In this document: one piece after another, positions 10,319 through 31,876 of the stretch
Numbering within the stretch: position 1 is the stretch's first letter
Layout: the number at the start of each line of letters is the position of its first letter
Virus record (IMG/VR): IMGVR_UViG_3300022690_001608
Location: 1-31,979 of that record
Source: a virus
DNA length: 31,979 nucleotides
Reading direction: 5' to 3' (one strand)
Program-made: the position numbers and the translations under genes
Notes under the pieces: generated by a model
The model's input: only the letters and a program-made list of their open reading frames with translations
Database searches by the model: none
Told to the model about the DNA's origin: nothing

Positions 10319-10970
10319 TATTTGATCTTCTTTTTTTGTTGTCTTTCCTCTTCTCTGTTAATCGTTCCAGCTATTTCATTAAGATTCAATATACGTGGAA
10401 TAGTTAATGATTCGACATATTGAAATGTTAACCCGCCTTTATAAAATCTTACTAACCTCCCAACAAGTAAATCTATGTCGATATTTTGATCTTTTAATCT
10501 TGTTGGGAAATAACTAAAAAATTTATAATGTACTTCCCTAGTATCTCCTTTGTATCTATTGGAGACATATCGTCAAACATAGATGGGGTCATTTTAGTCT
10601 CGCCATCCACGATGGATTTTTTCAATATGATCTTTAGGGCGCTAAAACATTTGACCATATTAGATCCACCACCCATCATGCTTGATATAACAGCATTGGG
10701 AGTCATTTCAGAGTCCTGATCTTTAGATTTATCTTGATCCTCCCTCTCTTTCATTAAGTTTGCAAAAGCTTCTTCTCCAATGACATTTTTAAATGATTCG
10801 ACCATCTTTAACTCAGATTTACGGTACTCTTTTTCAATTGTAGAAATCTGTTCTAATAGTCTATTACTTGGTGCTGGGATAACTATCTTCTGGGATAAAA
10901 CCTCATCACCACCAGAAGCGTATTTGAATGGCTTTAAAAATTCATGCTCAAAATCTTCTTTATACTCCAT
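10318..10970 (-). CDS. Tail assembly chaperone, long form made by -1 frameshifting (G-T type)
   Basis: Reading the short chaperone frame to the slippery heptamer at 10521-10515 and slipping back one base extends translation by 65 codons. The added tail starts SYFPTRLKDQNIDID and ends with a basic stretch (EEERQQKKKIK). The fused product would be about 217 residues. In lambda gpG/gpGT, P2 E/E' and many other tails, such a fusion loads the tape measure protein, and here the gene sits immediately before the tape measure gene. The extension has no start codon with a ribosome binding site and fills the otherwise empty gap exactly, ending in TAATG. This is strong evidence, though not proof, of programmed frameshifting. 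Confidence 0.82.
10494..10970 (-). CDS. Tail assembly chaperone, short form (G-like)
   Basis: A 158-residue product translated without frameshifting. It is acidic and helical, with a glutamate/aspartate-rich middle (EDQDKSKDQDSEM, residues about 76-88) and a C-terminus ending LVISQQD. Position between tail tube and tape measure identifies it as the counterpart of Mu gp41 and lambda gpG, which chaperone the tape measure during tail assembly and are not kept in the virion. It starts two bases after the tube gene stop. Confidence 0.8.
   Translation of the reverse strand: MEYKEDFEHEFLKPFKYASGGDEVLSQKIVIPAPSNRLLEQISTIEKEYRKSELKMVESFKNVIGEEAFANLMKEREDQDKSKDQDSEMTPNAVISSMMGGGSNMVKCFSALKIILKKSIVDGETKMTPSMFDDMSPIDTKEILGKYIINFLVISQQD
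10515..10521 (-). promoter_or_regulatory. -1 ribosomal frameshift site, T TTT TTA
   Basis: On the minus strand the codons AAT TTT TTA contain the heptamer T TTT TTA in the correct phase for simultaneous slippage (X XXY YYZ). It lies seven codons before the stop of the short chaperone frame, and the -1 frame beyond it is open for 65 codons. I did not identify a clear stimulatory stem-loop downstream. Confidence 0.8.
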
Positions 10971-22594: not shown

Positions 22595-22648
22595 GTTGTA
22601 ATTTAGTGCAGTTGAGGTTATGCAACGCAATTTTAACGCAATTAGGCC

Positions 22649-22722
22649 GCCCCCTAACCGGAATCAAACCAGCCTCTGCCTCGTGGTCATGCAAGGCTGC
22701 ATCGTCACTATGCTTTAGGAGC
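22649..22722 (-). ncRNA. Degenerate tRNA or tRNA-like cloverleaf
   Basis: Folded by eye on the minus strand this 74-nt stretch has tRNA layout. The acceptor-like stem is 22722-22716 with 22656-22649 (one bulge, one G-U). Two linker bases precede a 4-bp D-like stem (GCAT/ATGC), and one base precedes a 5-bp anticodon-like stem (GCCTT/GAGGC). A 4-base variable segment follows, then a 5-bp T-like stem around TTTGATT, contiguous with the acceptor. Deviations: the D-loop lacks GG, the anticodon-like loop has 10 bases so no anticodon can be assigned, and T-loop C56 is T. It may be a decayed tRNA, a tRNA mimic, or chance folding. A 13-codon ORF (22749-22708) overlaps its 5' end. Confidence 0.4.
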
Positions 22723-22899
22723 GTCGAAGAATGGATCATAAGTCGGCATTACCACAAGAGAAGTTAGGAATCAAACTGAGCCTTTACCAAGTAGTTGTTT
22801 TAAAAGATCAATTGGATAGAAAACCATCGCTCTTTTGAATCGTTTTCCTGAAGGAAGGAAAACGATAGAAATGCCAAAAGGAGCCCAAGAAAGTAGAGA

Positions 22900-22939
22900 G
22901 CCTGGTTCACCTTCCCGCGAAGAAGCTCATGAACCAGGC
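22900..22939. promoter_or_regulatory. Nested hairpin downstream of the candidate promoter
   Basis: Arms GCCTGGTTCA (22900-22909) and TGAACCAGGC (22930-22939) pair perfectly over 10 bases. The 20-base interior contains a second small hairpin, CTTC-CCGC-GAAG. No T-run follows on either strand. It would lie at the extreme 5' end of a leftward transcript from the candidate promoter. Confidence 0.65.
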
Positions 22940-22946
22940 CTAGGCG

Positions 22947-22975
22947 CTTAAACATCTTGTCAGGGCTCTAGTCAA
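22947..22975 (-). promoter_or_regulatory. Candidate sigma70-type promoter for the packaging operon
   Basis: On the minus strand TTGACT (22975-22970) is followed after 17 bases by TTTAAG (22952-22947), giving 5/6 and 4/6 matches to the consensus boxes. Transcription would start near 22940, just before the hairpin at 22939-22900, and run through the cloverleaf into the terminase genes. It is weak and could be chance. Confidence 0.3.
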
Positions 22976-23047
22976 TGGACAACCCTGTTACATAGCTTAT
23001 CAAACTTAGAACAAAATGTCACGTCATGGGTTTTTTATGGCTTTAAT

Positions 23048-23071
23048 CCGACCTTCCAATCTGAAGGTCGG
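23048..23071. promoter_or_regulatory. Perfect 9-bp hairpin after the methyltransferase gene
   Basis: CCGACCTTC and GAAGGTCGG pair without mismatch around CAATCT. It lies about 100 bases past the methyltransferase stop on the minus strand. The minus-strand 3' flank is A-rich, not T-rich, so it is at best a Rho-assisted end or an RNA-stabilising element. Confidence 0.55.
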
Positions 23072-23082
23072 GTCTAATTAGT

Positions 23083-23118
23083 CCGTAGTGTAGAAATCCC
23101 CACCACGGAGGGACGTGG
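23083..23118. promoter_or_regulatory. Two mutually exclusive hairpins sharing one arm
   Basis: The segment CACCACGG (23101-23108) can pair with CCGTAGTG (23083-23090; 8 bp with one G-U on the minus strand). Alternatively CCACG (23103-23107) can pair with CGTGG (23114-23118) around a 6-base loop. Only one can form at a time, an arrangement seen in switches and attenuators, but there is no direct evidence of function. Confidence 0.45.
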
Positions 23119-23169
23119 ACAAATAGTATGTATTTTCGGGTATGGTTGCATACATTGAATGACAACCAG

Positions 23170-24453: not shown

Positions 24454-24641
24454 GATAGTCCTTTCTTATTAAAAAGCCCCCCCTGCGTCATGGCCTATGA
24501 AATTGAGAGAAACACGTTCGGAAACTCCCACCTTCGCAGCTCGTCAGGGAGGGCATCTGCTGCTCAGACAGCTAGAAACCCTAGCCTCTTTTATTCAAAA
24601 CAGCAATGAAAAATGCTTTTGAAAAAAGTCTATTTTAATGC
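24454..24641. other. Divergent intergenic region and methyltransferase leader
   Basis: This stretch separates the leftward methyltransferase gene from the rightward regulatory operon. On the methyltransferase side, CTCCC (24525-24529) can pair with GGGAG (24547-24551), and GCTAG with CTAGC around 24571-24585. Both would lie in the methyltransferase 5' leader. A 22-codon ORF on the minus strand (starting MPSLTSCEGG) has no ribosome binding site. I found no convincing minus-strand promoter here. Confidence 0.45.
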
Positions 24642-30162: not shown

Positions 30163-30369
30163 CTAAATCCACCTGCGCATTTTAGCAGTCCACTCACTGA
30201 CCCGGTAGTAACCCGAAGCGTCATGCTTCGGATCACTACTGAATTCTAGTATCAATGATTTAGGAATCCATCCTTCGTAGGTGCCATCAGTTAAAAGCAC
30301 GAAAGAATCGCCCTCTTCAACCTTCGTCAGATAAAGCTCAATCGTGTCTTTAGTCTGCGTGCTCGGCAT
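30163..30369 (-). CDS. Small conserved phage protein
   Basis: A 68-residue protein starting MPSTQTKDTIELYLTKVEEG, a beta-rich small fold (SFVLLTDGTYEGWIPKSLIL). The start has AAGGAG seven bases upstream, inside the end of the preceding gene (20-base overlap). The upstream ATG at 30459 would add residues with no ribosome binding site. The C-terminus is basic (AKMRRWI). Function unknown. Confidence 0.65.
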   Translation of the reverse strand: MPSTQTKDTIELYLTKVEEGDSFVLLTDGTYEGWIPKSLILEFSSDPKHDASGYYRVSEWTAKMRRWI

Positions 30370-31072
30370 CGATGATCTCCTTACTTGATCGGCTAACAAA
30401 CGGCTTATATAAACCAAGCAATTGACGTACTCTGGCAAGCTCTTCCTCCTCCAAGACACTCGCCATGGATGGAACCATGAAAGAAAATACAGTGCCCCTT
30501 GAATTTTTCGTTTTTTCTAATGCGATCCGTGTAATCACACTGTAGTAAGGTTTGGCTTTAGAAGCTAAGCGTAGAAAGTACTTCGTCATGGACTTAAGAC
30601 TTCCCGGTGGCGCAACCACAACCAGCGGCAAGAAGTCATCCTTGCGTAGCATGAAAAGAATTTTCATTGATTTACATGCTTGACCGGGACCTTTTTCTGC
30701 CGAACCAAATTCTGAGAGTGGACAAACAGCACAATTACCACCAGGATTACCCACGCCTAAAACACCATCATCTGAATAACAGTCCGGCGGTGAGCCTCCA
30801 CCTGATTCATTGTAAGATACCTTCCAATAACTTCGTGGATCTTTAGCCGCCACGATGATCCCTTCAACGACTGGTGAACTTTCTTCGCCTTCGAGTCCAG
30901 GAATTGACCAATTTGTACCGCCGCCGGTAGGCACGTGGATCCGATCTAATGAGAATTCATCCGCGCTTGATCCCGATCCTAAATTTACGCTGAGTGCTTC
31001 TTTTACATTTTCTATTTTTGTGACTAAAACTTGATATTCACTCGCCTTGACCAGTGCTTGTTCTTTGCTCAT
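30350..31072 (-). CDS. Conserved phage protein with four-cysteine motif
   Basis: A 240-residue protein with DRIHVPTGGGTNWSIPG (about 43-59), then PPDCYSDDGVLGVGNPGGN followed by CAVCPLSEFGSAEKGPGQAC. The four cysteines C98, C114, C117 and C133 (CX15CX2CX15C) suggest a zinc site or iron-sulfur cluster. The second half (LPLVVVAPPGSLKSMTKYFLRL) is alpha/beta. I recognise the family from phages of several hosts, usually near replication helicases, with unknown function; single-stranded DNA binding has no direct support here. AAGGAG precedes the ATG. Confidence 0.78.
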   Translation of the reverse strand: MSKEQALVKASEYQVLVTKIENVKEALSVNLGSGSSADEFSLDRIHVPTGGGTNWSIPGLEGEESSPVVEGIIVAAKDPRSYWKVSYNESGGGSPPDCYSDDGVLGVGNPGGNCAVCPLSEFGSAEKGPGQACKSMKILFMLRKDDFLPLVVVAPPGSLKSMTKYFLRLASKAKPYYSVITRIALEKTKNSRGTVFSFMVPSMASVLEEEELARVRQLLGLYKPFVSRSSKEIIDAEHAD

Positions 31073-31111
31073 TTTACTTACTCCTTTGTTTTTCGTTTCT
31101 TTGTTCTTTGT

Positions 31112-31129
31112 GCCAAGTAAAAACTTGGC
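31112..31129 (-). promoter_or_regulatory. Short hairpin in the leader of the four-cysteine gene
   Basis: GCCAAGT (31112-31118 region) pairs perfectly with ACTTGGC around four bases (TTTT on the minus strand). It sits between the cloverleaf element and the ribosome binding site, about 40 bases before the start codon. No T-run follows the stem, so it is not a terminator. It may space or shield the ribosome binding site. Confidence 0.6.
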
Positions 31130-31130
31130 G

Positions 31131-31230
31131 TGGAGTCAGGCGGGATTCTCACCCACATACTACTTATTCCAACGGTTGCTTCGCCGGGTAGCCCACTTAA
31201 GGACACGATCCATCCGTGCTGCTGACTCCA
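31131..31230 (-). ncRNA. 100-nt cloverleaf-like structured element
   Basis: By eye on the minus strand: a 9-bp closing stem TGGAGTCAG/CTGACTCCA (31230-31222 with 31139-31131). Two linker bases lead to a 5-bp hairpin GCACG-GATGGAT-CGTGT (31219-31203), and 11 unpaired bases follow. A 10-bp hairpin with a 5-base bulge (31191-31160, loop AAGCAAC) and three bases come next. A 5-bp hairpin GTGGG-TGAGAAT-CCCGC (31156-31140) then joins the closing stem directly, as a T-arm joins an acceptor. It is not a standard tRNA: no U33 in the 7-base loop, no T-loop TTC. A 23-codon basic ORF (31231-31160) overlaps it, so coding is the alternative reading. Confidence 0.5.
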
Positions 31231-31236
31231 TAAAGT

Positions 31237-31299
31237 TTAGCCGCCACAATGCGGACAAGGATCATAATCGTCGTAACGATCGCGTTCTGTATTAATCAT
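31237..31299 (-). CDS. 20-residue microprotein ending in CPHCGG
   Basis: A very short frame with an excellent ribosome binding site (AAGGAGGGGGAG) before its ATG. It encodes 20 residues: an acidic, tyrosine-containing start (INTERDRYDDYD) and the end PCPHCGG, one half of a zinc knuckle. It could bind metal as a dimer or lend a CxxCGG knuckle to a partner. It lies between the small membrane protein gene and the cloverleaf element on the same strand. Confidence 0.6.
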   Translation of the reverse strand: MINTERDRYDDYDPCPHCGG

Positions 31300-31331: not shown

Positions 31332-31463
31332 TTAAAAAACGTTCCACCCTGCCTTAAGTAAAAACCATCCTATCCTGCCAAACGTTCCCATCCAAAGAAC
31401 TGCAAGGCCAGCAAATAAAATAAATAAACAACATACACCTACCTGCTCAGCAAAGTGTTTCAT
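31332..31463 (-). CDS. Small single-pass membrane protein
   Basis: A 43-residue protein starting MKHFAEQVGVCCLFILFAGL. Residues about 9-27 are a continuous hydrophobic segment, and the C-terminal part (GRIGWFLLKAGWNVF) is amphipathic and aromatic. The ATG overlaps the stop of the preceding gene as ATGA, which argues strongly that it is translated. Small phage membrane proteins include holin-like, host-inhibiting and envelope-altering types; nothing here selects among them. Confidence 0.65.
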   Translation of the reverse strand: MKHFAEQVGVCCLFILFAGLAVLWMGTFGRIGWFLLKAGWNVF

Positions 31464-31876
31464 GTTACTTTAACCGAAAAACCGACTTTGTATGTTTCGC
31501 GCCCCGTCACAACGGTGGCAATCGCATCCTCAACTGGATCTCCATCACGATCACATTCTCTTAAATGGGATGTAAGTGTTTTCAAATTTGCTTTTAACTT
31601 TGCATATTGAGGGAAGCCATTGGCATTAAGATACTCAGCCGCCGTGTCAGTATTAAATCCCTCATTGTAGGAAGCCCACAATTCCCGTCGGGGAGAAAGA
31701 GTATATCCATCAAGAGATATTTTATCCGCACCTGTTTGTGCAAACCAATTTAAAACGGAAGGCTGCAAATCTTCTAAATGTTTTTTAACTGCTTTGAGAT
31801 CTTCTTCGATCTCTGTTTTGCGTTTTAGATAACCGATGTAAATTCCAAGCTGGCGTGTGTCTTTGTTTTCAGGCAT
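31460..31876 (-). CDS. Conserved phage protein, probably coiled coil
   Basis: A 138-residue protein starting MPENKDTRQLG. Residues about 10-45 are a charged helix (KRKTEIEEDLKAVKKHLEDL), followed by ADKISLDGYTLSPRRELWASYNE, a pattern I recognise from phage proteins near recombination genes. The start is preceded by GGAGG at good spacing; the longer reading from 31915 has no site. The stop overlaps the small membrane protein start. Function unknown. Confidence 0.7.
   Translation of the reverse strand: MPENKDTRQLGIYIGYLKRKTEIEEDLKAVKKHLEDLQPSVLNWFAQTGADKISLDGYTLSPRRELWASYNEGFNTDTAAEYLNANGFPQYAKLKANLKTLTSHLRECDRDGDPVEDAIATVVTGRETYKVGFSVKVT

Follow-up and report, generated by a model that had tools for sequence, protein, structure and literature searches.

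Does the 100-nt cloverleaf ahead of a phage gene for a four-cysteine protein represent a genuine structured element and, if it does, what is its relationship to tRNA? The window, by which we mean the whole stretch of DNA analysed (a virus record of 31,979 bases, 39.5% GC), comes from a tailed phage carrying a Terminase_3 large subunit.

Gene neighbourhood

The cloverleaf region sits on the minus strand within a replication-type gene block. The order on that strand is DUF7307 gene, 43-aa ORF, 20-codon ORF, cloverleaf, second hairpin, A-rich tail and four-cysteine gene, with a further open frame overlapping the cloverleaf itself:

31460-31876 (about), minus strand: DUF7307 (Pam3 gp33-like) gene (Pfam PF23984, 2.8e-06)
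31332-31463, minus strand: 43-aa ORF with many hydrophobic residues, sharing ATGA with the end of the DUF7307 gene
31237-31299, minus strand: 20-codon ORF MINTERDRYDDYDPCPHCGG with a strong Shine-Dalgarno sequence AAGGAGGGGG, ending 6 nt ahead of the cloverleaf
31160-31231, minus strand: 23-codon basic ORF MESAARMDRVLKWATRRSNRWNK, an open frame without a Shine-Dalgarno sequence
31081-31086, minus strand: Shine-Dalgarno AAGGAG of the four-cysteine gene, in the A-rich tail and outside the cloverleaf
30350-31072, minus strand: four-cysteine gene, 240 aa (phrog_23155, function not known)

The four cysteines of the 240-aa protein are invariant across six homologues, and in relatives the DUF7307 gene is the immediate predecessor of the four-cysteine gene. 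The 20-codon ORF has two Cys codons near its end; it terminates in CPHCGG, half of a zinc-ribbon-like motif, just ahead of the cloverleaf. Two further gaps without a listed gene, at 10319-10493 (175 nt) and 24454-24637 (184 nt), were examined for GC content and folding energy per base.

Architecture of the cloverleaf

Sequence and pairings at 31131-31230 are those given by the initial annotation, which had not specified a strand. The cloverleaf lies on the minus strand, which is the coding strand here, and has the orientation of the four-cysteine gene. Its parts, from 5' to 3', are:

31131-31230, minus strand: whole cloverleaf, 100 nt (MFE -37.8 kcal/mol, z -2.58)
31222-31230, minus strand: 5' strand UGGAGUCAG of the closing (acceptor-like) stem, 9/9 Watson-Crick pairs with 31131-31139
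31203-31219, minus strand: D-arm-like hairpin GCACG-GAUGGAU-CGUGU (5 bp, 7-nt loop), separated from the closing stem by two bases, CA
31193-31202, minus strand: two-pair mini-stem CC-UUAAGU-GG, at the place of an anticodon arm or extra arm
31159-31192, minus strand: central bulged hairpin (5 bp, AAUAA bulge, 6 bp, 7-nt loop AAGCAAC), pair probabilities mostly at least 0.92
31140-31156, minus strand: T-arm-like hairpin GUGGG-UGAGAAU-CCCGC (5 bp, 7-nt loop), the loop having T54, R57 and A58 and lacking T55 and C56
31131-31139, minus strand: 3' strand CUGACUCCA of the closing stem, immediately after the T-like arm with zero linker
31112-31129, minus strand: second hairpin GCCAAGU-UUUU-ACUUGGC, beginning one base past the cloverleaf, with no T-run behind it

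Every stem of the cloverleaf is either perfect or contains G-U pairs; when the cloverleaf is folded by itself, most pairs form at a probability of 0.8-1.0. The plus strand of the same bases folds less well (z -1.46). The perfect 9-bp closing stem (UGGAGUCAG/CUGACUCCA), the linkers (CA after its first strand, none before its last) and the further hairpin downstream (31129-31112) are all present as annotated. The distance of about 60 bases to the start codon is likewise borne out, the last base of the cloverleaf (31131) lying 58 nt before the ATG at 31072. The count of three hairpins holds if the two-pair CC/GG mini-stem is left uncounted. With 55% GC the cloverleaf stands out from the genome (39.5%), a value that 1.4% of 100-nt windows reach. 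No convincing second copy was found within the window, where the closing-stem sequence is unrepeated.

Likeness to tRNA and to known leader RNAs

The cloverleaf is not a tRNA. ARAGORN reported 0 genes at default settings and none at the cloverleaf when relaxed (ps80, no intron). Rfam, including the tRNA models RF00005 and RF01852, gave no cloverleaf match at gathering score or at E up to 10, the sole match at E up to 10 being an unrelated lncRNA model on the opposite strand. Position 8 is C instead of U; U33, T55/psi55 and C56 are missing, and no loop gives an anticodon arm with U33. The acceptor-like stem has 9 bp, not 7, its 3' CCA is paired with 5' UGG rather than free as an unpaired NCCA, and the stack of T-like arm and closing stem comes to 14 bp compared with 12 in tRNA. 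The earlier judgement that this is no working tRNA thus stands.

What the cloverleaf has of tRNA is geometry. It shares with RF00005 the arm order, the two bases from acceptor to D arm, GG in the D loop and a T arm of 5 bp with a 7-nt loop (T54, R57 and A58) that joins without a gap to a closing stem of at least 7 bp. It differs in its 9-bp acceptor and in lacking U8, U33, T55/C56, a free CCA, a normal anticodon arm and a covariance-model score. The T arm GGGTGAGAATCCC has two differences from the canonical GGGTTCGAATCCC, exactly T55 and C56. The cloverleaf may be a tRNA mimic. A Cys-tRNA reading of the central loop AAGCAAC, with its anticodon-like GCA, was ruled out by the A in place of U33 and by the bulged stem.

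Two kinds of known leader invite comparison. The operator of Escherichia coli thrS is an mRNA leader that mimics tRNA, specifically anticodon arms, and through which its own synthetase is repressed. The cloverleaf is similarly a tRNA-like mRNA fold upstream of a start codon, but its gene encodes a phage protein of unknown function and the Shine-Dalgarno sequence lies outside the fold. Cobalamin and SAM-I riboswitches combine a multi-helix junction with a GGUGNRAAUCC-type T-loop hairpin, features that the cloverleaf shares, whereas their helix order is unlike that of the cloverleaf and neither is matched in Rfam at E up to 10; a likeness of the GGUGAGAAUCC hairpin to them was ruled out by the absence of any Rfam score. 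The initial annotation had suggested riboswitch-like control and an Rfam search. That search returned no relevant match for the cloverleaf at gathering score or at E up to 10, and Rfam gives the riboswitch reading no support. The cloverleaf belongs to no family tested.

The leader in relatives

First protein searches with the four-cysteine protein yielded relatives of up to 46% identity; among 80 viral loci listed by a profile search, the best reached 48%. In the close relatives the DUF7307-like gene runs directly into the four-cysteine gene and the leader is absent; in a few more distant ones a gap is present. One of these, L047 (39% identity), holds a 97-nt element and a tRNA-Met between the upstream gene and the four-cysteine gene (1748-1920). 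The element has a perfect 9-bp closing stem (GCTCTGATG/CATCAGAGC, z -3.20) and is followed within a few bases by the tRNA-Met (1848-1920, 55.7 bits to RF00005). Although the element has no sequence likeness to the cloverleaf of the window, L047 shows that the intergenic site before the four-cysteine gene can hold a tRNA together with a stem-closed element. In L087, L089, L092 and L095 the same gap contains a low-complexity AAGAAACAAAG/AAGAAGCAAAG repeat leader of varying copy number.

DNA pattern scans of all IMG/VR contigs, BLAST searches of phages and plasmids and covariance searches yielded no homologue of the cloverleaf. The IMG/VR-wide patterns, exact and gapped, gave 0 matches, 1 chance match inside other sequence (L025) and 22 gapped matches; BLAST gave only one 29-nt chance match. 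A covariance model, R1, built from the single cloverleaf sequence reached at best 17.7 bits for a non-self match among the relatives (L081) and 21 bits to genuine tRNAs. The same single-sequence model, run with no positive control, had no match in 149 genomes of one bacterial phylum. Terminase used as bait did not find a close relative of the phage.

Chance fold or structured element

Of 200 dinucleotide shuffles, 4 fold as stably as the cloverleaf. Among 5,000 such shuffles, three or more branches enclosed by a stem of at least 8 bp occur in 26 and the energy is reached in 60; the two coincide in 1. Folding of a 110-nt stretch every six bases on both strands identified some 20 distinct places in the 32-kb window where one or other strand forms a multibranch structure with a closing stem of 9 bp or more; two of these structures are similar to the cloverleaf in stability. 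The cloverleaf shape alone is therefore not extraordinary. What singles it out is where it lies: the genome has few non-coding gaps, and the cloverleaf occupies most of one of them, 164 nt long.

A similar picture emerges from a tRNA-geometry descriptor, drawn from general tRNA geometry but chosen after the cloverleaf had been seen (7-bp closing stem; 0-1 nt to a 5-bp arm with a 7-nt loop carrying T54, R57 and A58; at least three MFE branches). Searching 1.79 Mb yielded 35 matches, namely 33 with a canonical TTC[G/A]A loop, one in L138 and the cloverleaf. Shuffled DNA gives 2.2 matches per Mb, or about four expected by chance in 1.79 Mb, so the two non-canonical matches are within chance for the whole set. 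The annotated acceptor/T-arm geometry is borne out in that the descriptor overwhelmingly retrieves canonical loops (33/35), but non-canonical matches such as the cloverleaf do not exceed chance frequency. Shuffling the 164-nt gap reproduced a match in only 2 of 20,000 cases (about 1e-4), and the match is thus remarkable for its gap, not genome-wide.

On balance, we consider the cloverleaf to be probably a real structured element. It is somewhat unlikely, if a serious alternative, that a GC-rich non-coding insertion merely happens to form a cloverleaf and is functionless. Such an origin accords with the frequency of multibranch folds in the window and of descriptor matches in shuffled DNA, with a z no stronger than -2.58 and with the finding of the element in no relative. 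It is harder to reconcile with the single shuffle in 5,000 that jointly matched stem and energy, and with an element that takes up most of its gap in a genome with few gaps. Were the fold due to chance, the case would urge caution on inferring function from single-sequence folds.

Transcript context and proposed processing

No promoter-like or terminator-like site lies beside the cloverleaf on the minus strand, and the neighbouring genes overlap or abut; hence the cloverleaf is probably part of an operon transcript, in which it would act in cis. A reading as an intrinsic terminator was rejected: there is no GC stem with a T-run at the cloverleaf on either strand, and the second hairpin has no T-run.

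RNase P recognises substrates by using the T-arm/acceptor stack as a ruler rather than by sequence (PMC4919913), and its non-tRNA substrates include the phage M3 and C4 RNAs, mRNAs and polycistronic messages (PMC11143913). Because RNase P reads this stack and accepts such substrates, we favour an element acting in cis whose 5' side is either cut or protected. Our preferred reading, which we put forward tentatively, is of a tRNA-shaped, non-decoding element in the operon mRNA, with two small ORFs before it and the four-cysteine gene after it, possibly serving as an RNase P-type processing or stability site. RNase P would measure the stack of T-like arm and closing stem, or a different endonuclease would cut the RNA. 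A cut near 31230/31231 would separate the four-cysteine message from the small upstream ORFs and leave it with a stable structured 5' end, while the A-rich ribosome-binding region would remain outside the structure, as predicted for both the isolated cloverleaf and a 251-nt fold.

Folding in longer contexts bears on this proposal. In five of the eight sequence contexts folded, the two longest (308 and 441 nt) among them, the full 9-bp stem has a probability of ~0.6-0.7; the MFE fold of the 251-nt context is not the cloverleaf. The 251-nt MFE fold leaves the AAGGAG of the four-cysteine gene unpaired, but some folds of different length pair it with sequence further upstream. The known non-tRNA substrates of RNase P resemble the cloverleaf in having a T-arm/acceptor-like stack inside a longer transcript, in a phage or operon context (PMC11143913). 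They differ from the cloverleaf, for which cleavage is predicted, in that its stack is 14 bp and that no sequence relation is shown. The 14-bp length of this stack and the pairing of the CCA argue against the cloverleaf as an ideal substrate for RNase P, and the failure of the searches to find a homologue, and with it any covariation, counts against the preferred reading.

If the element is real, it would be a case of a dsDNA phage that exploits the shape of tRNA, though not its function, in controlling or protecting part of an operon. A bolder version appears improbable to us: that it typifies a new class of phage mRNA element, a non-decoding, tRNA-shaped cloverleaf with a longer acceptor, read by host RNase P or another tRNA-handling enzyme in a polycistronic message, which would set the level of one cistron or act as a tRNA decoy against host defence.

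tRNA remnant, switch and peptide

The cloverleaf might instead be the remnant of a phage tRNA gene, perhaps of a kind with a long variable arm, after loss of the decoding residues; we regard this as rather unlikely. The T arm is indeed only T55 and C56 away from canonical, GG is retained in the D-like loop and a second cloverleaf with a tRNA-like T loop occurs at 22649-22722. The idea also gains a little from the true tRNA-Met at the same intergenic place in the distant relative L047, and a remnant would then record decay of phage tRNA cargo at a site where a relative still has its tRNA. Against these points, there is no Rfam tRNA score even at E 10, the residues U8, U33, T55 and C56 are missing, the acceptor is 9-bp rather than 7-bp and 100 nt is long. 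Moreover, the stems are intact, although decay usually breaks stems as well. Intact stems with lost decoding letters suggest selection, if any, on shape, which fits better than simple decay.

The closing stem invites a further alternative, since its 3' strand can pair with GGAGUGAG, beside the start of the 20-codon ORF. The 20-codon ORF, with its strong Shine-Dalgarno sequence, would then be a leader peptide, and formation of the cloverleaf would be decided either by a ribosome at the stop codon of this ORF, which lies 6 nt ahead of the closing stem, or by pairing with GGAGUGAG. For a transcript starting near the Shine-Dalgarno sequence of this ORF the rival fold is 1.3-2.9 kcal/mol better, a near isoenergetic pair (-66.3 vs -65.0). 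The alternative pairing is gone in longer contexts, however, no terminator lies downstream, coverage of the four-cysteine Shine-Dalgarno sequence changes with folded length without a clear on/off pair, and there are no homologues, all of which make such a switch quite unlikely. Finally, that the region encodes the overlapping 23-codon peptide, with the structure incidental, is very improbable: the ORF exists at 31231-31160, open and basic as annotated, but coding is unsupported, as the frame has no Shine-Dalgarno sequence, starts within the stem and gives no tblastn match for its peptide, and it is probably not a gene.

Other structured elements

A repeated family among the gapped IMG/VR matches (L119, L122, L126, L131, L134, L136 and L138) is a structured RNA, rejected as a homologue and treated as unrelated to the cloverleaf because it has no covariance-model score and no in-register alignment. 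Phage contigs, several with tRNA arrays, carry many structured elements of ~55-140 nt that are each flanked by the same inverted repeat, CCATATTGAAGCACATT ... AGTGTGTTTCAATATGG, and differ in their interiors:

L122, 258-356, 482-578, 775-910 and 1105-1165: inverted-repeat elements
L131, 161-252 and 776-912: inverted-repeat elements
L119, 6491-6544 and 6854-6989: inverted-repeat elements
L138, 10834-10962 and 11178-11313: inverted-repeat elements

Rfam has no family for these elements of L119, L122, L131 and L138; one of those in L131 contains a canonical tRNA T arm. In the window itself, a 539-nt ORF-poor gap (22631-23169, z -3.14, no relevant Rfam match) precedes the gene upstream of terminase. 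This gap contains the second cloverleaf (22649-22722, minus strand; MFE -26.7, z -1.68), which has the T-arm loop TTTGATT and is called "tRNA-???" by relaxed ARAGORN.
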